Translations under genes and position numbers: made by a program
Notes under the pieces: generated by a model
Databases searched by the model: none
What the model saw: the letters and a program-made list of their open reading frames with translations, nothing else
Told to the model about the DNA's origin: nothing
Part shown: positions 12,113 to 34,179 of the stretch, one piece after another
Layout: every line of letters begins with the position of its first letter
How positions within the stretch are numbered: position 1 is the first letter of the stretch
Assembly (NCBI GenBank): GCA_017936665.1
Contig: JAGBFB010000013.1
Span: 1 to 46,026 of the forward strand
Direction of reading: 5' to 3'
DNA: 46,026 nt
Origin: Spirochaetaceae bacterium
Lineage (GTDB): Bacteria > Spirochaetota > Spirochaetia > Treponematales > Treponemataceae

Positions 12113-14041
12113 TTATTTATCGTCATCAACTACTTCGTAGTCAACATCATCAGCAGTACCTTTTTCTGAACCTGTTGATGTATTTGCAGAAGCTCCATCA
12201 GCACCACCCATATCTGGTCCTGGTTGACCGTTTGCAGCCTGTTGTTTATAAACTTCTTCTGCAATTTTATATGATGCTTGTTTTAATTCTTCTGTTTTTG
12301 CCTTAATTTCTTCTGTATTATCAGATTCTAAAGATTTCTTAAGAGCTGCAACAGCATCTTCAATTTTTTGTTTATCGGCAGCAGAAACTTTATCTCCCAA
12401 TTCTTTGAGTGTTTTTTCTGTTGCATAAACCATTGAGTCAGCTTCGTTACGAACATCAACTCTTTCTCTTTCTTTTTTATCTGCAGCAGCATTTGCTTCA
12501 GCTTCTTTAACCATGCGGTCAATTTCACTTTCGCTAAGACCACTTGAAGATTCAATTCTTACGCTTTGTTCTTTTCCTGTTCCTAAGTCTTTTGCAGAAA
12601 CGTGAACAATACCATTAGCGTCAATATCAAATGTAACTTCGATTTGAGGAACTCCACGAGGAGCAGCTGGAATACCAACTAAGTCGAATCTTCCTAAAGT
12701 TCTGTTTTGTGCAGCCATTTCTCGCTCCCCTTGAAGAACGTGAATTGATACAGCTGTTTGTCCGTCAGCAGCAGTTGAGAAAATCTGGCTTTTCTTTGTA
12801 GGAATTGTTGTATTTCTTGGAATAAGTTTTGTAAATACTGCACCCATTGTTTCAATTCCAAGTGAAAGAGGTGTAACATCAAGAAGAAGAACATCTTTTA
12901 CATCTCCACCAAGAATACCACCTTGAATTGCTGCACCAATTGCAACAGCTTCGTCAGGGTTTACACCTTTAGAACCTTCTTTACCAAAAACTTCTTTTAC
13001 TACTTGTAAAACTTTTGGCATACGAGTTGATCCACCAACTAACAATACTTCATCAATTTGGTCAGGTGTAACACCAGCATCTGCAAGAGCTTTTCTACAA
13101 GGTTCCTTTGTTTTTTCAAACAAGTCATCTGTCATTTGTTCAAATTTTGCTCTTGTTAATGATTTTTGAAGGTGTTTTGGACCTGTTGCGTCTGCTGTAA
13201 TAAATGGAAGATTAATTTCTGTTGAAGATTGTGCAGAAAGTTCAATCTTTGCTTTTTCAGCAGCTTCTCTTAAGCGTTGTAATGCCATTCTATCTTGAGA
13301 CAAATCAATTCCTGTATCAGCTTTAAATTCATCAACTAACCAGTTAATAATTCGGCGATCAAAGTCGTCTCCACCAAGATGAGTATCACCATTTGTTGAT
13401 TTTACTTCAAAAACACCATCACCTAATTCAAGAATTGAAATATCGAAAGTACCACCACCAAGGTCATAAACAGCAATCATTTTTTCTGTTTTTTGATCTT
13501 TGTTAAATCCGTAAGCCAAAGAAGCAGCAGTTGGTTCGTTAATAATTCGTTTTACATCCAAACCTGCAATTTTTCCAGCATCTTTTGTTGCTTGGCGTTG
13601 TGCGTCATTAAAATATGCAGGAACAGTAATAACTGCTTCTGTAACTTCTTCACCAAGGTAATCTTCGGCTGTTTTCTTCATTTTTTGAAGAATGAAAGCA
13701 CTAATTTCTTGTGTAGAATATTTTTTACCATCTACGTCAATTCTTAAATCATCATTTCCGTATGGTTCAACATGATATGAAACAAGTTTTGCTTCACCTG
13801 TAAGTTCGTTATATCTGTGTCCAATAAAACGTTTAATTGAGTAAATTGTATTTTCTGGATTAGTTACCATTTGGTTTTTTGCTGGTTGACCAACAATTCT
13901 TTCACCTTTAGCAGTAAAAGCTACGATAGAAGGAGTTGTTCTTCCTCCTTCAGAGTTTTGAATAACAACTGGTTCCCCACCTTCCATAACTGCAACACAT
14001 GAGTTTGTTGTTCCTAAGTCAATTCCAATAATCTTTCCCAT
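12113..14041 (-). CDS. dnaK: Chaperone protein DnaK (Hsp70)
   Basis: A 642-residue Hsp70. It starts [18 protein letters not shown] (phosphate loop 1). It also contains [14 protein letters not shown] and the [12 protein letters not shown] signature, the [10 protein letters not shown] linker, a beta-sandwich peptide-binding domain and a lid. It ends in the usual acidic [12 protein letters not shown] tail. It folds nascent and stressed proteins with DnaJ and GrpE. AGGAGA precedes the ATG. The grpE-to-dnaK spacer is unusually long (364 nt) and carries a tandem structured duplication that may tune dnaK expression. Confidence 0.99.
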
Positions 14042-14074
14042 AATATCTCCTATTGTAAATTTATGAAGAAAACT

Positions 14075-14200
14075 TCAGTTTTCGAATAAATTTGCAAGTT
14101 GCTGTTTCGAACATTGAGAGAAACAGCAGTTAATATACAAGTTTGCATTTTTGCAAACTTGAAATGAAATGTGAAGCACTATTTGTGCGTAACATTTCAT
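14075..14200 (-). CDS. Small ORF upstream of dnaK (41 aa)
   Basis: An ATG with AGGAGA at correct distance opens a 41-codon frame, MKCYAQIVLHISFQVCK at its start, ending TGA 33 nt before the dnaK ATG. Its first 23 codons are identical at the DNA level to the small ORF in the neighbouring repeat unit. The peptide is Cys-rich and resembles nothing I recognise. The hairpin arms overlap the codons, so it may be a leader peptide, a translated by-product of the RNA structure, or not translated at all. Confidence 0.35.
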   Translation of the reverse strand: MKCYAQIVLHISFQVCKNANLYINCCFSQCSKQQLANLFEN

Positions 14201-21087: not shown

Positions 21088-21810
21088 CTAAAGAACACTC
21101 TGTAAAAACTGTTTTGTTCTATCATGTTGTGGATTTTCAAAAATATCCTCTGGAGTTCCTTCCTCAAGAACAATTCCATCATACATAAACAAAACTCTAT
21201 CAGCTACTTTTCTTGCAAAACCCATTTCATGAGTAACAACTACCATTGTCATTCCGTCTTCGGCAAGTTGTTCCATAACTGCTAAAACTTCACCAACCAT
21301 TTCTGGATCAAGAGCAGATGTAGGTTCATCAAAAAGCATTACTTCAGGATTCATCGCCAAAGAACGAACAATGGCAATTCGCTGTTTTTGTCCCCCAGAA
21401 AGAGCTGAAGGATACACTTCTGCCTTATCTCGTAATCCTACTCTGTCTAACAACGCATAGGCATCTGAGGTTGCTTGTTCCTTAGTTTTTAATTTTAGAG
21501 TAACAGGAGCAAGTGTGATATTTTCTAAAACTGTCAAATGAGGAAACAAATTAAAATGCTGAAAAACCATTCCCATCTTTTGACGAATTTTGTTTATATC
21601 ATTTTTTTTATCAAGAATATTTATTCCATCAATAAAAATTTCACCAGATGTTGGAGTTTCTAGTAAGTTCAAACAGCGCAAATAAGTACTTTTTCCAGAA
21701 CCAGATGGTCCAATTATTACAACCTTTTCGCCTTTTTTTATGGTTTGAGTTACGCCTTTTAAAACTTTTAAATCCCCAAAGTTCTTTTTTAGATTTTTAG
21801 TGTCTATCAC
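21088..21810 (-). CDS. Amino acid ABC transporter ATP-binding protein (GlnQ-like)
   Basis: A 240-residue ABC ATPase of the polar amino acid uptake family. Motifs in order are Walker [10 protein letters not shown] (about 34-42), Q-loop [13 protein letters not shown], signature LSGGQKQR, Walker [15 protein letters not shown] and the H-loop VVTHEMGFA. It begins at a GTG whose coding sequence overlaps the permease by 14 nt, so the two are translationally coupled. It powers import with the adjacent permease and binding protein. The exact amino acid is not determinable from sequence alone. Confidence 0.95.
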
Positions 21811-22465
21811 TTTTAGCCAACCTTTTTTCTAAAATTGCAAATAATTTTGTAAGTCCTAAAGTTAAACATAGATAAATTACAGCACATGTTAACAATGGAA
21901 TCCAAGCATTGTATGTTGCATTTCTAATCATATCTCCTGCTTTTGTTAAATCGGTAACAGCGATAAAACTTGCAACAGATGTTTCTTTGATTAAAACAAT
22001 AAATTCACTTGTATATGTAGGCAAAGCGGTTTTTACTGCTTGAGGTAATACAATTTTTATTAAAGTTTGAGCCTTACTTAATCCCAAGGAGCGTCCTGCT
22101 TCAGTTTGACCGATGTCAACTCCTTGAATTCCAGCTCTAAATATTTCAGTACAATAAGCCCCAGAATTTATTCCGTAGGCCAAAATTGCAACAAAAAGTC
22201 TATCTAATCCCAAAGGGGCAAAAACTACAAAATAAAAAATCATTAATTGAGTTGCTAATGGAATTCCACGAATTACTGTGGTATAAAAATTTGCAATTCC
22301 ACGTAAAATTTTACTAGAAGAAATTTTAAAAAGAGCAAAAATGCAACCAAGAACAGTTCCAATAAGGATTGCACAAATTGCTATTAGTACGGTAACACCA
22401 AGTCCTTGTAAAATAAGAACCCATCTATCACCTGAAATCATAGTATCATAGAATGATTGAAACAC
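21797..22465 (-). CDS. Amino acid ABC transporter permease (HisM/GlnP-like)
   Basis: A roughly 222-residue permease with about five membrane helices. It carries the EAA loop [30 protein letters not shown] (in part [15 protein letters not shown]) and the family motif [18 protein letters not shown] at 22477 also opens the frame, but GGAG would then overlap the start. GTG at 22465 has that GGAG six bases upstream and is preferred. It is downstream of the binding protein, separated by a hairpin. Confidence 0.93.
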
Positions 22466-22488
22466 TACATTCTCCAAAAATAAATTTT

Positions 22489-22542: not shown

Positions 22543-23316
22543 CTATTTTCTGATAATAATTACTTGTTCTGATTCAAAATAAGGAACAGAGAAATCTACA
22601 TTCTTTTTGCGTTCTTCTGTTACAGACATTCCAGCAGCAATAAAGTCGATTGCACCAGAAGCTAAAGCAGGAATAAGGCTATCGAATGCCATATCAACTA
22701 CTTCAAGTTTTGTACCAGCATCTTGAGCAATTTTTTGTCCCATTGTGATATCAAATCCAACAATTTTTGAACCTTCAACATATTCAAAAGGAGGGAAAGC
22801 AGCATTTGTTCCAAGTTTTAATGTTTTATTCCCTGTTAATTCTAAATCTGTAGGAATAACAACCTGTCCATCAATTGGCATAAATGAAGCAACTAAGTAT
22901 TCATAATCACCATTTGATTTAATTTTTTCGATTGTTTTATTAATAGAATCAACTAACTCTGTGTTTCCTTTTTTAATAGCGATTGCATATTCTTCTCTTG
23001 CAAATTTATCTTTTACGATATCTAATTTTCTGTTTTTTGCAACAATTTCTTTTGCAGGAAGTTCATCAAGAACAACAGCGTCAATATTTCCATTCATAAG
23101 ATCCATTGCTGCATCAATTCCTGTTTTAAAAGATACTACGGTTGCGTCTTTTACGTTATCTGTTACCCACCATTCACCTGTAGTTCCAGCTTGAACACCA
23201 ATTTTTTTACCAGCTAAGTCGTCAGCTCTATTGATGACAACTTTTTCTTTTTTAGCACATCCTGTTACACAGAAAACTAAAAGAAGTGTAAGTAAAACTG
23301 CAATAATTTTTTTCAT
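22543..23316 (-). CDS. Amino-acid binding lipoprotein of an ABC transporter, circularly permuted
   Basis: A 257-residue SBP_bac_3-type lipoprotein with signal peptide and lipobox VTGC (Cys20). The order of its halves is reversed compared with the family. Residues 32-146 are what normally forms the second half (DDLAGKKIGVQAGTTG through NGDYEYLVASFM). Residues 164-257 are the normal N-terminal half (KTLKLGTNAAFPPFEYVEG through PYFESEQVIIIRK), joined by a ~17-residue linker. Both halves are well conserved, so it is a circular permutation rather than a frameshift. AGGAGG precedes ATG 23316; a longer frame upstream begins inside the promoter. It should deliver an amino acid to the permease encoded next. 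Confidence 0.92.
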   Translation of the reverse strand: MKKIIAVLLTLLLVFCVTGCAKKEKVVINRADDLAGKKIGVQAGTTGEWWVTDNVKDATVVSFKTGIDAAMDLMNGNIDAVVLDELPAKEIVAKNRKLDIVKDKFAREEYAIAIKKGNTELVDSINKTIEKIKSNGDYEYLVASFMPIDGQVVIPTDLELTGNKTLKLGTNAAFPPFEYVEGSKIVGFDITMGQKIAQDAGTKLEVVDMAFDSLIPALASGAIDFIAAGMSVTEERKKNVDFSVPYFESEQVIIIRK

Positions 23317-23344
23317 AATTATATTTCCTCCTAAAAGTGATTTC

Positions 23345-23373
23345 ATTATACCACAGAACAACAAAATTGTACA
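23345..23373 (-). promoter_or_regulatory. Promoter of the amino acid ABC operon
   Basis: On the minus strand TGTACA (23368-23373), a 17-nt spacer and TATAAT (23345-23350) with TGG before it (extended -10). The start codon follows at 23316 with AGGAGG in between. Confidence 0.65.
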
Positions 23374-26115: not shown

Positions 26116-28533
26116 TTATTCACCTTGCAAGATAACATTTACATTAACTGTACAACTTCTTCCTTTTGAATCAACTACAGTAATTTCATGTTTTCCTAAA
26201 GGACAATTCCACTCGTAAACTTCGTTGGGTTTTGTACGGGTTATAAAATCTGAACCACAAAACCAAATTAGTTCAGATGAATCGGCATCACTTGAGGCTT
26301 CTAAAATTATTTTGTTTCTGTTTTCATCTTTAGTACGATACACATAATCAGTTCCCGTCATAGGTGAAAGAATCTGTGGAGGAAATCCATCACGGTTATT
26401 CCACATATTAAAACTTTCTGGAGGATAAGAAGGTGGAACAAGTCTTGGCAATCCTGCTTGTTCAAACAAAATTTGTAAATCACTTGGCCAAAATTCTCGG
26501 ATTACAGTTTTTACATATTGCTTATCTATTTCATCTGTGCGATAACCTGTGCGTAAATCAATATTTATCTTTCTGTGAATTTTACATTTTTCAATTGGTG
26601 AAGTTCCGGGAATAAAGTAAGTCTTTTCTTTTTTTTCGCAATTTTCTGTTGGAATACTTCCCGAAACGGAACAAACTTCAATTTCAGAAACTTTGCGTGG
26701 AGGCCAATCTACAAGTATCATATCTTGTTTATTCATTTGTGATAAAATTGAATAAGCAATTTCAAAAAATAATGGAGCAGACATCCTTCTTCCTAAAAAT
26801 GAATTATTTCCCTGCCCATCAAAATTACCAATCCAAATACACAAAATATATTTATCAAAAAAACCAATTGTCCAGCTATCTTTAAATCCAATTGAAGTTC
26901 CTGTTTTATATCCTATTGGAATATTTTTTAAATCTATTGGAATTGATGAAACTGGTGGAACATTTGCTTCTAACATTTTTCTTACGATAAAAGCACTTTC
27001 TTCTGTTAATAATTGTTTTTCAAAATCTTCGCTTGATAAATTTTTTGTTGCAAATCCTTCTTTATAAAATTTAATATTTTTATATTTCCCATTATTTGCT
27101 AACATTGCATACAACTTTGTTAATTCTAACATTGTAACTTCTGCACTTCCTAAAACGATGGAAAGTCCATAATGCTCTTTTGATTTTAAATTTGATATAT
27201 TTGCACTTTGTAAAAAATCGTATAAATCAGGATTTTGTATTTGCTGTGCTAAACTTACAGCAGGAATATTTCTACTATCTGCCAATGCAAACCAAGCCTG
27301 TACTGGTCCTTTAAAAGTATTTCCATAATTATCTGGAGCATATTCATTAAATGCTTGTGGTGTATCTTTTAACATTGTACGATAATGAATTAATCCTTGT
27401 TCTAAAGCCAATGCGTAAATAAATGGTTTTAAAGTAGAGCCTGGAGAGCGTTTAGAAGTAGTAATATTTACTTGACCTTGAATTTCGTTGTTATAAAAAT
27501 CTAGCGAACCAATATTTGCTAACACTTCCATATTTTGCCAATCTAGTAAAAGTAAACCACCATTGTGAACTCCAAAAGATTTATGTTTTGCAATATGTGA
27601 TTCTAAAAATTCTTCACATTGTTTTTGTAAAGATAAATCTATTGTTGTTTTTTTTATTTGTCTAATTTTTTTTTCATCTTTTAAATTTATATTTTCTTGT
27701 TGTGCTAACATTTGAGTAAAGTGAATTGCTTCGTTTGGAAAATCGCAAACTGTATTTATTTTCATATCCATGTAATTTTTTTTATCTGCATCTTCAGGAT
27801 GTTCCTTTATCCAATTATTAAATAAAACCTTTCTGGCATTGATCAGTTCACTTGGAGTTTTAAATTTTTCTGGTGCACGTTTTGTAGGATTTTGTGGTAA
27901 AACACATAACATAATATTTTCTGAAAGAGAAAGTTTTTCTATTGGTTTTGAAAAATAATACCAAGAAGCACTTTCAAATCCTTCAATATTTTTTCCACAA
28001 GGAACAAGATTTACATACGCATCTAAAATTTCTTGTTTTGAAAAACACATTTCTAAATACAATGCAAAAATAATTTGTAAAAGTTTACCAGGAATATTTT
28101 TTGTGTAAAGATTATATTTTAACTTTGCAACTTGCATTGTAATTGTACTTGCACCAATACGCCTACTTTTTTTTATGTAAGTTTCATTAAATGCTTTAAA
28201 TATTGAAACAATATTTATTCCATTGTGTGAATAAAAAAATTTATCTTCTTGTGTTAATAATAAATCAATAAATTCTTGGGGATATTCATTAACATTTTTG
28301 TAAACGCGATATTTATCATCTTCAGTTAAAAATACTTGAATTAAATTTCCGTTTCTATCTTCATAAGATGAAGAAAAATAAATTCCAGATAAAATATCAC
28401 CATTGTTTTTTACATAAAGCACATGAACAAAAAATGCAAGAATTGATAAAACAAAAATTGAAAGGAGAACAAGCAAAACTTGTTTTTTTGAAAAATGAAA
28501 TCTCTTAAAATTTATTTTACACAATCCTTGCAC
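26116..28533 (-). CDS. pbpC: Penicillin-binding protein 1C (bifunctional peptidoglycan glycosyltransferase)
   Basis: An 805-residue class A PBP of the 1C type. One N-terminal membrane anchor (about 17-42) leads into a GT51 domain with QEDKFFYSHNGIN near 90 and GASTITMQVAKL near 135. The transpeptidase domain has STLK (Ser about 365), SRN and KTG (GYKTGTSIG near 541). A C-terminal BiPBP-type domain follows (about 715-805). It starts at GTG with TAGGA upstream, 12 nt after the alpha-2-macroglobulin gene. PbpC paired with a macroglobulin is a well-known bacterial arrangement. Confidence 0.93.
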   Translation of the reverse strand: MQGLCKINFKRFHFSKKQVLLVLLSIFVLSILAFFVHVLYVKNNGDILSGIYFSSSYEDRNGNLIQVFLTEDDKYRVYKNVNEYPQEFIDLLLTQEDKFFYSHNGINIVSIFKAFNETYIKKSRRIGASTITMQVAKLKYNLYTKNIPGKLLQIIFALYLEMCFSKQEILDAYVNLVPCGKNIEGFESASWYYFSKPIEKLSLSENIMLCVLPQNPTKRAPEKFKTPSELINARKVLFNNWIKEHPEDADKKNYMDMKINTVCDFPNEAIHFTQMLAQQENINLKDEKKIRQIKKTTIDLSLQKQCEEFLESHIAKHKSFGVHNGGLLLLDWQNMEVLANIGSLDFYNNEIQGQVNITTSKRSPGSTLKPFIYALALEQGLIHYRTMLKDTPQAFNEYAPDNYGNTFKGPVQAWFALADSRNIPAVSLAQQIQNPDLYDFLQSANISNLKSKEHYGLSIVLGSAEVTMLELTKLYAMLANNGKYKNIKFYKEGFATKNLSSEDFEKQLLTEESAFIVRKMLEANVPPVSSIPIDLKNIPIGYKTGTSIGFKDSWTIGFFDKYILCIWIGNFDGQGNNSFLGRRMSAPLFFEIAYSILSQMNKQDMILVDWPPRKVSEIEVCSVSGSIPTENCEKKEKTYFIPGTSPIEKCKIHRKINIDLRTGYRTDEIDKQYVKTVIREFWPSDLQILFEQAGLPRLVPPSYPPESFNMWNNRDGFPPQILSPMTGTDYVYRTKDENRNKIILEASSDADSSELIWFCGSDFITRTKPNEVYEWNCPLGKHEITVVDSKGRSCTVNVNVILQGE

Positions 28534-28545
28534 TTAAAATTTTTC

Positions 28546-31500
28546 CTACTTAGAAATTTTAATTGGACTTTGCGGTCCTATTCCTTTAATTTCGCCATTA
28601 TACATAGATTCAGCATACAAAGGAGGAACAACAAAAGTTCCTGTACTAATCGCTTTTGCTAAGTAAGTAAAACTATTTATTCTATCAGTTACAGTTCCGT
28701 ACAACACAACCCTATCTTCTCTAATATCAATATAGTCTGGTTTCCACATTGAATCTGAAGTTCTTATTGATTCAATATCACTTTCGAGTCCTGCACATGA
28801 AAGATCAATTACAGCAACATTGTTTAAATATCCTTCTTTTGAAGAGCGAATATTTATTTTTACCATAACTGTATCACCAATTTTAATATCAGATAATTTA
28901 CTTCCATCTGGTTTGCAGAATTCTCTAAAAACTTCAATTCCATCATCAACTGGTTTTGTTGGAATACTTGTTTCATATCCACCTTCAACAGTTTGATAAT
29001 ACATCAACAATTCTGAATCATTTTTGAAAATAATTTTTTCTGCATCAGAATCAAAGTTTGATTTTTTTGCATATTGTGATTTTACATTTTCACTTTCAGA
29101 TTCAAAAGGTAATTTTTTTTCTTCATTATTAATCAATTGATAAATTTCATAAGGATTATTTTCAGCAGAAATTAATTTTGAATATGAATACAATGCTTTA
29201 TAAGCAGCAGACGTTGAAAAGGAATTAAAAAAATTAAATCTTAATCTATTACAGAATGATTCAACTTGTTCCTTTGTAATGTGTTTAACTTTTTCTGGAA
29301 AGTATGTTGAAACAATATCAATATAAGTTGAATTATAATGTAATTCATTTTGATAATCCCAAGACGAATCGAACATCATATCAAATTTTGCGGCGTTATA
29401 AAGTTTATTAGCTTTTTCTTCTTGCATCATCATTTTATAACTTGCTGCAAGATATAATTTTTCATATTCACTTGAAGAATCAAAAATTGATAAATCTTTT
29501 TCTAAATCTTCAATGTAATGAGTTGTAACTTCTTCATTTTTTGTAAGAATATAAATTGCATAAGCGCGAATATGAGCTTCTCGTTTTTCTTCAGAATCAG
29601 AAGCAATTACTTCAACTGCTTTTAAAACTTTAGACATAAAAGTTGAAGGAACAGAAAAGCCATGATTCTTTGCGTCAGTTAAAAATTCTGCTGCATACAA
29701 AGTAATTATATCTTGTGTTGGAGATTTATTTGTCCAATACCCAATATTACCATCAGGTTTTATCCTTGATTGTAAAATTGAAATTGTTTCTTCAACCATT
29801 CCATTAACTTTTTCTTGAGTAATACCAGCAACTTTTGCAACATCGCGATAAATATATGGATAGGTTTTACTAACAACTTGTTCAGAACAACCATAAGGAT
29901 ATTTTTCCAAATAAAATTTTAATCCGTCAACAAATGTTGTTGGCATGTTTGAAACAGAAGCAGTCCTTTGAGCATACTCATCATAAGTTTTATGTTCTAC
30001 ATTTAATTTTGCAGATTTAGATTTTGTTAAACCTGATTCAATCCAAACTTGATAAGGCATTGAAGGTCGCACACTTAAAGTAGAAGTATAAACTGTTTTT
30101 TCTTCTACTCCAGAAAGATTTTTACCAGTTGCAATAAATTTTAATTCAGCGCCCCCTAATTTATTTTCTGCTTTAACAACAAAGCGCACAACTTCATCCT
30201 TCCCTTCTGGAATTTTTACTTTGACAGTTTTGTCTGTCAACACAGAAAGATGCTCTGTATTTTCAAGATTGATTGTAACTTCTGCATTATCTCCACTTCC
30301 TTTAAAATTATTTGTTACAGTTACAGAAACATCAAATTCATCTCCGGGAGCTGCAACAAGAGGATTATTTGGAATCATGATAAAAGCATTAGTTGCTATT
30401 GTTGAAGTTTGTGCAGACCCAACAGTATCAGGAGAAACTGCAACTGCCATAACTCTAATTGAACCGTTAAAGTAATCTGGAACTTTATATTTTACAGATC
30501 GAGTTGATTGATCTGCATCTAAAATTCCAGACCAGAAAGCAACAGGTTTATTTACTTTTCTACTAAATGGATTTAAATTTGATTTAAGCATATCCATTCC
30601 AGCCCCACCACCAAAAGCAGAAACTGATTTTAATACATTATAGTCAGGTAAAACCAAATCTAAAATTTGTAATGTTCCAACTTCTAATGCTTTCTTTTGA
30701 AAAAAGAATGAAAGAGGATCAGGAGTAGAATATCTTCCTACTTGTAAAATTCCTTCATCGACAGCAAAGACCACAATCTTTCCTTTTTCTGAAGTTGAAT
30801 AATTTATTGTAAATTCTTCACCAGATTTTATTTCTGATGGCACATCTAATTTTATTTTATTTGTCCGATTATCCTTATTTACAGAAAATGGCACAGTACC
30901 ATAACAGAATGGACTCATAAAAATTTCTTCAGAAGTTGAACTTCGAGTAAACATTACATTTATATATCCATTACCTTCTATACCGAAAGGTATATCAATA
31001 GTTTGTATTGAAGAAAGTTCGGAAGTATTAAACCATTTATAAGAATAAACTTTATCTCGTTCTATTGTAATTAAACCACTTCCTGGATAAGGCGATTTAA
31101 TAAAAAGTTTTGCAGTTTCTCCTACTGATAAATCAGAATCTTCAAGAGTTATTTCAAGTTCTGCATTTCTTGTTAAACTTCTTGTAATATTTTTATCACC
31201 AACTACAGAGTAGTTAATTTTGTTAAACACCAAACCTTCTTCATTTACTAAAGAAACAGTAAATTCTCCTTCGATATTTGTAGGCACAACAAAATCATAT
31301 CCGTCTTTTGTAATAGAAATTTTTTGACTTGAAACCGGATATTCTTTTTTTACAGACTGATATTTATACAAACCGTTTGGTTGTTTTACTAATGATGAAA
31401 CATATTTTTGTTCTTCAATATTCAAAGTGATATTTTCAAGTGAAATTTTTTCTAAGTTTTTATCAATAGCAATTAAAGAAATTTTTCTTACTGAATCATT

Positions 31501-34179
31501 ATTAACATAAGAAAGTGAACCGTCTGCTTTATATCCAATCATATATTTTAACGGAGATACTATAACTTGTGATTGTTTTGAAACATTACGGCCACTATCT
31601 TTTTCAAAAGCTTCTACATAAAAAGTTAATTGATATGTCGCTTTCTCAAATTTTTCTAAGTTAATCTTGAAATTTGCTTTACCTTCATCATTTGTTTTTA
31701 CTTCACCTAAAAATTCATCATAAGAGTTTTCTTTTAAATATGGATCTGAAAAATTATAATCAGAATATTTTTTTACAGATGGAAAACCAGGTGTTAAAGT
31801 AATTTGTCCTCTAACTTCATTTCCACTAGCAGGAGTTCCAAAAAGATTTCTTAAACTTACAGTTCCAATTAATTCATCTGTATCAATCCATCCAGAATTT
31901 GGAAGAGGTTCAAATCCTGTTTGCAAAGTTAAAGTGTCAGGTAAAAATTCTTCCACACTTAAAGAATTTGATGCAAGATAATTTCTTTTTATTTTCTCAT
32001 TTTCTTCTTTTAATAAGTACAGGGTAACAGTATACTTTCCTGTTGGAGAATATTGTTTTGTAGAAAAACTTACTTCATTAAAACCAGATGCGGAATTAGA
32101 AAATTGTTTTGTAAACATTTCAGTTCCTTTAGAATCTACAACAGCAAGTTCTAGTGGAATGTTGTACAAATTATTATTCCAATCTCCAGATTTTAAAATC
32201 ATACCAACATTAATTTCTTCCCCAGGACGATAAATTCCTCTATCATTAAAAAGATAAGCGTTAATTTTTTCTGGATCAGAAGAACCATAAACGCCACCAA
32301 CATCAAAGTTTGAATAATCCAATCTTCTTCCATTAGCTGAATAAGGCATAAAAGATAAATCATTTGCTTTTTCAACAATGTATGCAATTGGCTCATGTTC
32401 ATTTTCTAATCCGGATAAATCTGAAATTGTTGCATGACCTAATGAATTTGTAAAAGTTTCATAAACAGGATTTCCGTTAATTCCTAAAACACATACTCTT
32501 GCATTTCCAACAGGATTTCCAGTTGAAATTGATTGAACAAAAATATCTTTTGTTCTGTTTGAATTTTGTTTTACAAAAAATCCTAAGTCTGTTACAAGAA
32601 TCAATCTTTTATCTTTTAAACGAGAATTGCTATCATCTTCAACAGAAAAAATAAATAAACCATTTTTTAGATTTTTTTCTGGCACAGAATTTAGTTGCTT
32701 TGTAAAATCATAAGAAAAATATGAAACAGTTTCTAAGTTTGCTCCAGGAATATAATATTTGCTTGTTGTTTTTTCAGAAATATTATCTTCATCAAAACGA
32801 TAATTTGAAAATTTAAAATTTTTCATATCACCATTTGACATGGCAACAAGATGATTAATATCTTTTGGCATTATTCGTGAAATTGAATACTCTACTCTGT
32901 TTACACCTCTGGAATACAATGACATTTTTTTACTTCCAGACAATGAAAGAATTGTACCCTCTGATAAAATTCCAAGTTCTTTAGGATAGTTTTTTACTCG
33001 CAAAGTTTTTTCATAAACATCATCCCACTTATAACCACCGTAAAAATTTATATTACCTGCAATTTTTACATAAATATATTTTTGTGGAGTTGTTTTTATT
33101 TTAAATGAATTTACAGATGAATTCTTTTCCGCAGTTGGAATCATCGTAAAATCAATTTTTTTTGATTGTGATAAAACTAAATCAGTAACATAAGTTGTAT
33201 CGTACCAATCATAATTTTTAATTTCTTTATGACCTTGTTCTTTTGGTCTATCATCTGGAAGTTCGTAAACTGAAATATATTTTTCTAATTCTTCTGCCGA
33301 AACCATTCCTTTAGTTTCAACAAAAATTATTTGGTCATAATTTTGTTTATCATTTTTAATCAAAGAATGACTTACGTTTTGAATATTTACATAATCACTA
33401 ATTCCAGGAACAGTAACTGAATCAGTCAACTTAGAGGAAGGAGCTCCTCCAAAAAGTGATTTTATTCCACTATCAACTACAATGTTCATTTCAGAAGTAT
33501 ATTGAGGCATTGGAATTGGTTCACTAACTACATAAGCGATGGTTTTATTTTCATTATATGAAATTTTAAAATTATAATTTTTTTCTATACTTTCAACTTT
33601 ATTAGAATTACTAGAAGACTTATCTTTTTTACCAGATTTTAATTTAAGTGAAATTTTCTTTGAAATATTTTCTGTGTCAAATGGTGCAGTTCCTTCCAAA
33701 GAAAATGTTACACGTTTAATTGAAGTATTTTCTGGATCAATAAAAAATTCTGCATCAGTCATTGAAAGTTTATAATCTAAAGTTTTAAATGAGCAGGAAC
33801 TATCAACAATTACATTATCAGAAAATAGTTTTGTGTTAAAATTGATTTTATACTTTGTTCCAAGAGACCAATTTTCTTTGGGAACAAATTTTAAATAACT
33901 ATCATTTACCCATGACCAAGTTCCATTTATAACTGGTGAAATTGTTATAAGATTAGACAAATCTTGTTCGCTATAATTTATAGGTGCAACTGATGAAGAA
34001 AATGCAATTTCTAAAGGTGATTTAAGTTCTGTACTAGTATCAGTAAAATAAATTGCTGGTTCATATAAATTAGTAGTAACTTCAAATTTTGTAGCCTCTA
34101 CTTTTTGCGAAGGCTTACAACCAAAAAAAATAGCAACAAATAAGACAAAAAAAATAACTGAGGAAAATTTAAACTTCAT
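28546..34179 (-). CDS. Bacterial alpha-2-macroglobulin lipoprotein (YfhM-like)
   Basis: An 1877-residue periplasmic protease trap, one of the largest genes here. The signal peptide ends IFFGC (Cys21). MG-type beta domains fill the N-terminal two thirds, with MG/bait features such as DRGIYRPGEEINVG near 648. The thioester motif YPYGCSEQ lies near residue 1430, with Cys and Gln intact, followed by the alpha-helical thioester domain and a receptor-binding-like C-terminus. Such proteins are thought to guard the cell envelope from host or phage proteases and to work with PbpC. TGGAG precedes the ATG. Confidence 0.95.
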   Translation of the reverse strand: MKFKFSSVIFFVLFVAIFFGCKPSQKVEATKFEVTTNLYEPAIYFTDTSTELKSPLEIAFSSSVAPINYSEQDLSNLITISPVINGTWSWVNDSYLKFVPKENWSLGTKYKINFNTKLFSDNVIVDSSCSFKTLDYKLSMTDAEFFIDPENTSIKRVTFSLEGTAPFDTENISKKISLKLKSGKKDKSSSNSNKVESIEKNYNFKISYNENKTIAYVVSEPIPMPQYTSEMNIVVDSGIKSLFGGAPSSKLTDSVTVPGISDYVNIQNVSHSLIKNDKQNYDQIIFVETKGMVSAEELEKYISVYELPDDRPKEQGHKEIKNYDWYDTTYVTDLVLSQSKKIDFTMIPTAEKNSSVNSFKIKTTPQKYIYVKIAGNINFYGGYKWDDVYEKTLRVKNYPKELGILSEGTILSLSGSKKMSLYSRGVNRVEYSISRIMPKDINHLVAMSNGDMKNFKFSNYRFDEDNISEKTTSKYYIPGANLETVSYFSYDFTKQLNSVPEKNLKNGLFIFSVEDDSNSRLKDKRLILVTDLGFFVKQNSNRTKDIFVQSISTGNPVGNARVCVLGINGNPVYETFTNSLGHATISDLSGLENEHEPIAYIVEKANDLSFMPYSANGRRLDYSNFDVGGVYGSSDPEKINAYLFNDRGIYRPGEEINVGMILKSGDWNNNLYNIPLELAVVDSKGTEMFTKQFSNSASGFNEVSFSTKQYSPTGKYTVTLYLLKEENEKIKRNYLASNSLSVEEFLPDTLTLQTGFEPLPNSGWIDTDELIGTVSLRNLFGTPASGNEVRGQITLTPGFPSVKKYSDYNFSDPYLKENSYDEFLGEVKTNDEGKANFKINLEKFEKATYQLTFYVEAFEKDSGRNVSKQSQVIVSPLKYMIGYKADGSLSYVNNDSVRKISLIAIDKNLEKISLENITLNIEEQKYVSSLVKQPNGLYKYQSVKKEYPVSSQKISITKDGYDFVVPTNIEGEFTVSLVNEEGLVFNKINYSVVGDKNITRSLTRNAELEITLEDSDLSVGETAKLFIKSPYPGSGLITIERDKVYSYKWFNTSELSSIQTIDIPFGIEGNGYINVMFTRSSTSEEIFMSPFCYGTVPFSVNKDNRTNKIKLDVPSEIKSGEEFTINYSTSEKGKIVVFAVDEGILQVGRYSTPDPLSFFFQKKALEVGTLQILDLVLPDYNVLKSVSAFGGGAGMDMLKSNLNPFSRKVNKPVAFWSGILDADQSTRSVKYKVPDYFNGSIRVMAVAVSPDTVGSAQTSTIATNAFIMIPNNPLVAAPGDEFDVSVTVTNNFKGSGDNAEVTINLENTEHLSVLTDKTVKVKIPEGKDEVVRFVVKAENKLGGAELKFIATGKNLSGVEEKTVYTSTLSVRPSMPYQVWIESGLTKSKSAKLNVEHKTYDEYAQRTASVSNMPTTFVDGLKFYLEKYPYGCSEQVVSKTYPYIYRDVAKVAGITQEKVNGMVEETISILQSRIKPDGNIGYWTNKSPTQDIITLYAAEFLTDAKNHGFSVPSTFMSKVLKAVEVIASDSEEKREAHIRAYAIYILTKNEEVTTHYIEDLEKDLSIFDSSSEYEKLYLAASYKMMMQEEKANKLYNAAKFDMMFDSSWDYQNELHYNSTYIDIVSTYFPEKVKHITKEQVESFCNRLRFNFFNSFSTSAAYKALYSYSKLISAENNPYEIYQLINNEEKKLPFESESENVKSQYAKKSNFDSDAEKIIFKNDSELLMYYQTVEGGYETSIPTKPVDDGIEVFREFCKPDGSKLSDIKIGDTVMVKINIRSSKEGYLNNVAVIDLSCAGLESDIESIRTSDSMWKPDYIDIREDRVVLYGTVTDRINSFTYLAKAISTGTFVVPPLYAESMYNGEIKGIGPQSPIKISK

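Follow-up and report, generated by a model that had tools for sequence, protein, structure and literature searches.

The stretch of DNA analysed here (hereafter the window; 46,026 nucleotides of a Spirochaetaceae contig) carries on its reverse strand a three-gene operon in the order substrate-binding protein (SBP), permease, ATPase. The first gene, at 22543-23316 (-), with its ATG at 23316 and its stop codon at 22543-22545, encodes a 257-residue product plus stop, which homology and translation identify as a circularly permuted SBP_bac_3 lipoprotein. Its signal peptide (residues 1-19; 23260-23316, -) is intact in the sequence and leads to the lipobox VTG followed by C20. The permease lies at 21797-22477 (-), matches PF00528 and scores above the cut-off of TIGR01726, the polar amino-acid permease family; the ATPase, at 21088-21810 (-), matches PF00005 and is GlnQ-like, although it falls below the GlnQ equivalog cut-off (NF007027, 329 bits versus the 379 needed). 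Both are also adjacent to the SBP gene in relatives. A ribosome-binding site, AGGAGG, stands at 23327-23332 (-), and a possible promoter, TGTACA-17-TATAAT with a TG extension, at 23345-23373 (-), a pattern whose frequency in a promoter scan was no higher than chance within the window. No Rfam element reached its gathering threshold 5′ of the operon.

Directly upstream of the operon is a lipoprotein with a CotH kinase domain (PF08757; 23531-25975, -). Elsewhere in the window, a TD-1 RNA (RF03155, 72 bits; 14048-14170, -) lies directly 5′ of a DnaK-like ORF (12113-14041), and at 26116-34179 (-) a penicillin-binding-protein-1C-like ORF was recognized by eye beside an alpha-2-macroglobulin-like ORF of 1877 residues.

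The half that normally ends the protein comes first. This half B (residues 27-146; 22879-23238, -), delimited by sequence and structure alignments, comprises lobe 2, the hinge strand from lobe 2 to lobe 1 and the last helices of lobe 1, and holds T45/T46 and D84. It is followed by a new linker, PIDGQVVIPTDLELTGN (residues 147-163; 22828-22878, -), which joins the normal C and N termini, both located on lobe 1, and is overlapped by an FMPxDGxIxIP motif at residues 145-155. Half A (residues 164-257; 22546-22827, -), assigned by homology to PF00497, is the normal N-terminal part of lobe 1; it holds N171, F174, F211, S231 and R236 and ends with the hinge strand SEQVIIIRK. The break thus falls in the loop that follows the first hinge strand, with ..EQVIIIRK at the C terminus and ..VVINRADDLAGKK at the mature N terminus. 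The initial annotation, made by reading the sequence, had described this swapped order, a new linker of about 17 residues, the fusion of the natural termini inside the chain, the signal peptide and the two transporter genes that follow, and it was accurate on each.

Swapped halves and predicted fold

When solved structures were searched with phmmer, the window protein matched AncQR as two strong stretches in reversed order, residues 165-257 aligning with AncQR 11-104 (E = 1.5e-26) and residues 27-141 with AncQR 108-226 (E = 2.2e-18), and TmArgBP was likewise matched as two reversed stretches. The sole straight-through chain among the matches listed was the tandem SBD1-SBD2 of GlnPQ (6h30), where the alignment spans the domain junction. 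The profiles agree: PF00497 scored 122 bits against a cut-off of 26.4, with its best stretch at residues 166-257 (profile positions 1-92), and TIGR01096 of NCBIfam gave two stretches on the window protein versus one on a usual-order Treponema orthologue. SBP_bac_3 homology therefore spans the whole domain, both halves matching solved members, but the order of the parts is not the canonical one (N-terminal lobe 1, lobe 2, C-terminal lobe 1), and because the halves are swapped we file the protein as a permuted variant of the family and not as an ordinary member. The E-values, together with the conservation of this order at over 120 loci, exclude a chance match and support the reading of the gene as a circular permutant.

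AlphaFold2 predicted one bilobed protein (pLDDT 93, pTM 0.82), the packing of the lobes being judged through these two scores and the structural alignments. In this predicted model, residues 27-148 superpose on TmArgBP 126-247 (6svf) at 1.4 Å over 121 residues, and residues 161-252 superpose on TmArgBP domain 1, so that the prediction yields the bilobed SBP_bac_3 fold and, as far as computation can, excludes a fold other than that of a binding protein. End to end, the model matched usual-order SBPs weakly in VIA-align, as expected for a permutant, and more poorly than did a control model of a usual-order orthologue, which aligned with TmArgBP at Z 24.5 over 208 residues. Its best end-to-end match was OpuAC (2b4l; Z 13.4, 4.4 Å, 205 residues), a purely structural resemblance, as no OpuAC family appeared among the Pfam matches of the window protein at E ≤ 0.001.

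The positions equivalent to LAO Y14, F52, R77, T121 and D161, in an LAO sequence that we presume to be correct, are conserved across nearly all permuted rows of the alignment. Among them, R236 and D84, the equivalents of LAO R77 and D161, are kept across the permuted rows; we take the LAO residues to hold the alpha-carboxylate and the alpha-amino group of the ligand, respectively. Among subunit families, the best matches were those for glutamine, cystine and arginine/lysine, none of which reached its equivalog cut-off. With a permease and an ATPase of the same class adjacent, the operon has the composition of a polar amino-acid ABC importer, whose probable ligand, by analogy, is a polar alpha-amino acid. 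The relatives, the high-confidence model and the conserved ligand-contact positions all support the earlier view that the permuted protein is probably functional.

Spread of the permuted order

The permuted gene is present in 3/3 genomes of the window's genus. Across the family, 147 of 274 genomes gave matches at E ≤ 1e-25, most of them full length with 49-73% identity and the order preserved; full-length colinear permuted relatives occur in about 130 of the 274 genomes and in 9 of the 20 genera, and T. bryantii, T. lecithinolyticum, T. brennaborense and Treponema sp. JC4 are among the named carriers. The permuted order thus prevails among the operons of the family, a point beyond the reach of the initial annotation, and the gene is also present elsewhere in the phylum, in other families. 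A profile scan of the fetched loci, some of which overlap, gave 122 permuted and 36 usual-order ORFs. An alignment of 53 permuted proteins has 32 invariant columns, in line with the earlier remark that both halves are well conserved, and the MPxDG motif of the linker occurs in 113 of 118 permuted Treponema-type ORFs. One Treponema genome (G128; loci L141 and L142) encodes two permuted SBPs, one in an operon and the other, strongly diverged, with no permease detected nearby.

An error of assembly or binning, or a decayed pair of fragments from two neighbouring SBP genes, could in principle produce such an order, and the window's genome is a draft of 43 contigs. However, relatives carry the gene intact and in this order at more than 120 loci, the isolates T. 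bryantii XBD1002 and T. lecithinolyticum ATCC 700332 included. This rules out an assembly artefact and, with the invariant columns, leaves this explanation a negligible probability. The protein might instead borrow the fold as a sensor or scavenger outside transport, as a few permuted copies (L139-L141, L143, L154) have no detected permease nearby. This is very improbable, given that the permease and ATPase directly follow in the window and that a permuted ORF precedes permease and ATPase in 90 loci and, in a further 12, just a permease. A domain-swapped dimer or chain, in which half A of one molecule pairs with half B of the next, deserves somewhat more weight than a non-transport role but is still improbable. 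The linker is short, SBPs of this family can domain-swap, a capacity seen in TmArgBP, and the (BA)3-permease chains described below indicate that A can come after B through a native-like hinge; against this, AlphaFold2 gave a confident single-chain bilobed model, and the linker has a conserved motif and a nearly constant length (11-15 residues between profile ends in 115 Treponema-type ORFs), which argues for a monomeric permutant.

Usual-order orthologues and independent permutations

In about 17 genomes of one Treponema genus (g16), a usual-order SBP replaces the permuted gene beside the same permease and ATPase. All usual-order orthologues among the family matches listed belong to this one genus, whereas the permuted order is found in nine; within this genus and operon, permuted and usual-order orthologues are about 55-65% identical per half. 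In an SBP tree built with both halves arranged in a common frame, the usual-order Treponema proteins form one clade inside the permuted ones (support 98/89, within 98/85, within 100/99), and in permease trees the permuted operons L142, L028 and L152 are placed among usual-order operons. Constraining the permuted proteins to a single clade was not rejected by the AU test on the SBP alone (p = 0.08) but was rejected on the permease and ATPase, which do not carry the trait (p = 0.0115), and on all three genes of the operon (p = 0.005).

The usual-order Treponema proteins also end in a C-terminal tail of the type AFMPVDGQIRVLSASDL (in L129, AYMPLEGEIRIPVIEGLE), which matches the FMPxDGxIxIP linker of the permuted proteins over its first half. 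The MPxDG tail is present in 14/14 usual-order Treponema ORFs versus 0/37 other usual-order proteins, most of which stop at the last helix. The likeliest history is that the order was permuted once and then reverted one or two times, the linker persisting as a tail. Recombination or transfer within the genus may have been involved, and none of the Treponema loci examined showed an intermediate in which the whole gene is duplicated.

The usual order could alternatively be ancestral in the clade; no reversion would then have taken place, and the same hinge permutation would have arisen there repeatedly and in parallel. Other lineages do show independent permutations at this hinge, and the SBP-only AU test is compatible with this history. 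Yet all Treponema-type permuted proteins have a common breakpoint and nearly all a common MPxDG linker, the tail is confined to the Treponema members of the usual-order set, the permuted order is spread over nine genera against one for the usual-order orthologues among the matches listed, and this history would require about three separate permutations at identical residues. We regard parallel permutation as unlikely, albeit the most serious competitor to permutation followed by reversion.

Beyond the spirochaetes, 17 of 197 genomes of one order of Clostridia matched a permuted query at E ≤ 1e-45, among them one canonical tandem (L183) and one form cut at the second hinge (L190). The Clostridia cases are mostly stand-alone permuted SBPs with a permease and an ATPase; in L191 the permuted SBP is fused to the permease, and L183 encodes a usual-order ABAB-permease chain. 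Since only 3 of 388 sampled genomes of Bacillota at large matched the permuted type (E ≤ 1e-42, with a query different from that of the Clostridia search), the permuted type seems concentrated in this one order. Three Clostridia loci (L187-L189) carry a near-copy of the Treponema-type permuted SBP operon, with permeases scoring 364-365 bits against that of the window, which suggests a transfer between phyla; the other permuted Clostridia loci have different linkers. A single origin of all permuted SBP_bac_3 proteins with the Treponema revertants was rejected (lnL 65 lower, AU p = 0.0086). In the broad tree, well-supported branches force at least three changes of order, and the number of origins is uncertain because the deep forks are weak.

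The cut point also varies, which, like the differing linkers, speaks for more than one origin. L156 and L157 start later, at IGVQAG, and retain the ..DV.. loop at the C terminus. Two Clostridia genomes encode proteins cut at the second hinge strand (L190:2121-2948, -, and L220:1498-2301, -), in the order lobe 1 C-part, lobe 1 N-part, lobe 2, which are 62% identical to each other and accompanied by a permease and an ATPase. BABABA-permease chains occur in Clostridia (L114:2363-5407, +, and L115:1333-4434, +, where a long Pro- and Glu-rich linker separates the first unit) and in spirochaetes (L138, L165, L166); with the ABAB-permease chain, they establish that tandem SBP arrays exist. We find it reasonably probable that SBP_bac_3 proteins of anaerobes have undergone permutation on several independent occasions, with cuts at one or the other hinge crossing, and that at least one lineage has reverted and kept a linker scar.

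Proposed mechanism and known permutants

We propose that the gene product, a lipoprotein related to SBP_bac_3 and TIGR01096 proteins but permuted at the hinge, binds the substrate of a polar amino-acid ABC importer. Its chain would run from lobe 2 through the second hinge strand into lobe 1, then through the new linker to the first hinge strand, which is now cut. The protein would close as a Venus flytrap on an alpha-amino acid, with one of the two interlobe strands interrupted by the new termini; Arg236, Thr46 and Ser231 would contact the carboxylate and Asp84 the amino group, and the permease and ATPase encoded alongside would receive the bound amino acid. The lipid anchor would leave from the hinge and not from lobe 1. 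The permutation probably arose through tandem duplication of the gene followed by loss of the outer halves: a B-A unit could be excised from a GlnPQ-like A-B-A-B array, and the BABABA chains could be trimmed arrays. It would be ancestral in a Treponema-centred clade, with one or two reversions within a single Treponema genus, and would have arisen independently in other lineages. We give this explanation as a whole, a working importer SBP permuted at the hinge with the history just described, a probability of about 85%.

TmArgBP, AncQR, GlnBP and LAO (TIGR01096) are homologous to the window protein over both halves, with the same ligand-contact positions, and canonical SBP_bac_3 importers have the same kind of permease and ATPase partners; the window protein differs from them in its swapped halves, in termini moved from lobe 1 to the hinge and in the new linker. 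The SBD-permease fusion of GlnPQ is a usual-order ABAB tandem, unlike the BABABA-permease chains among the Clostridia and spirochaete loci, but the window protein aligns straight across its SBD1-SBD2 junction, an arrangement that would allow excision of a permutant.

Tp0684 (TpMglB-2), a type I glucose-binding lipoprotein from T. pallidum, is circularly permuted ('Type Ic' or 'Cluster Bc') and has relatives in treponemes and Gram-positive gut bacteria (PMC4990184). It resembles the window protein in its natural permutation, its lipid anchor and its similar taxa, but has a type I sugar-binding fold, belongs to a different family and is cut differently; Pfam assigns the window protein to SBP_bac_3, and Tp0684 is absent among the PDB sequence matches listed. 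The passages of that study consulted here describe neither recurrence nor reversion. The reason proposed there for permutation in treponemes, relief of strain on the lipid-tethered N terminus (PMC4990184), is weakened because 33 of 115 Treponema-type permuted ORFs lack a cysteine at the lipobox position, which the other 82 have. In structure, the glycine-betaine-binding proteins OpuAC and ProX are related by circular permutation (CPSARST, PMC2395249) and are another case among bilobed binding proteins, but in a different family (12% identity) and as an old divergence visible in structure only, not between close orthologues of one operon. In the open-access literature, the scope of our search (subscription journals lay outside it), we found no published permuted SBP_bac_3 protein, only Tp0684 and the OpuAC/ProX pair. 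Natural permutation of binding proteins is therefore already known; what is surprising is its recurrence and probable reversion within SBP_bac_3.

As a rule, natural circular permutation is known from pairs of distantly related proteins. Here, both orders occur among close orthologues in the same operon and one genus, with sister lineages and a scar, so that the spread of a permutation, its cost or gain for hinge motion and anchoring, and its reversibility become directly testable. Annotation that relies on order may split or under-score permuted proteins, and permuted SBPs are natural hinge-cut scaffolds for biosensors. If our reading is true, the operon of these treponemes would hold close orthologues whose chain order has changed naturally and reversibly.
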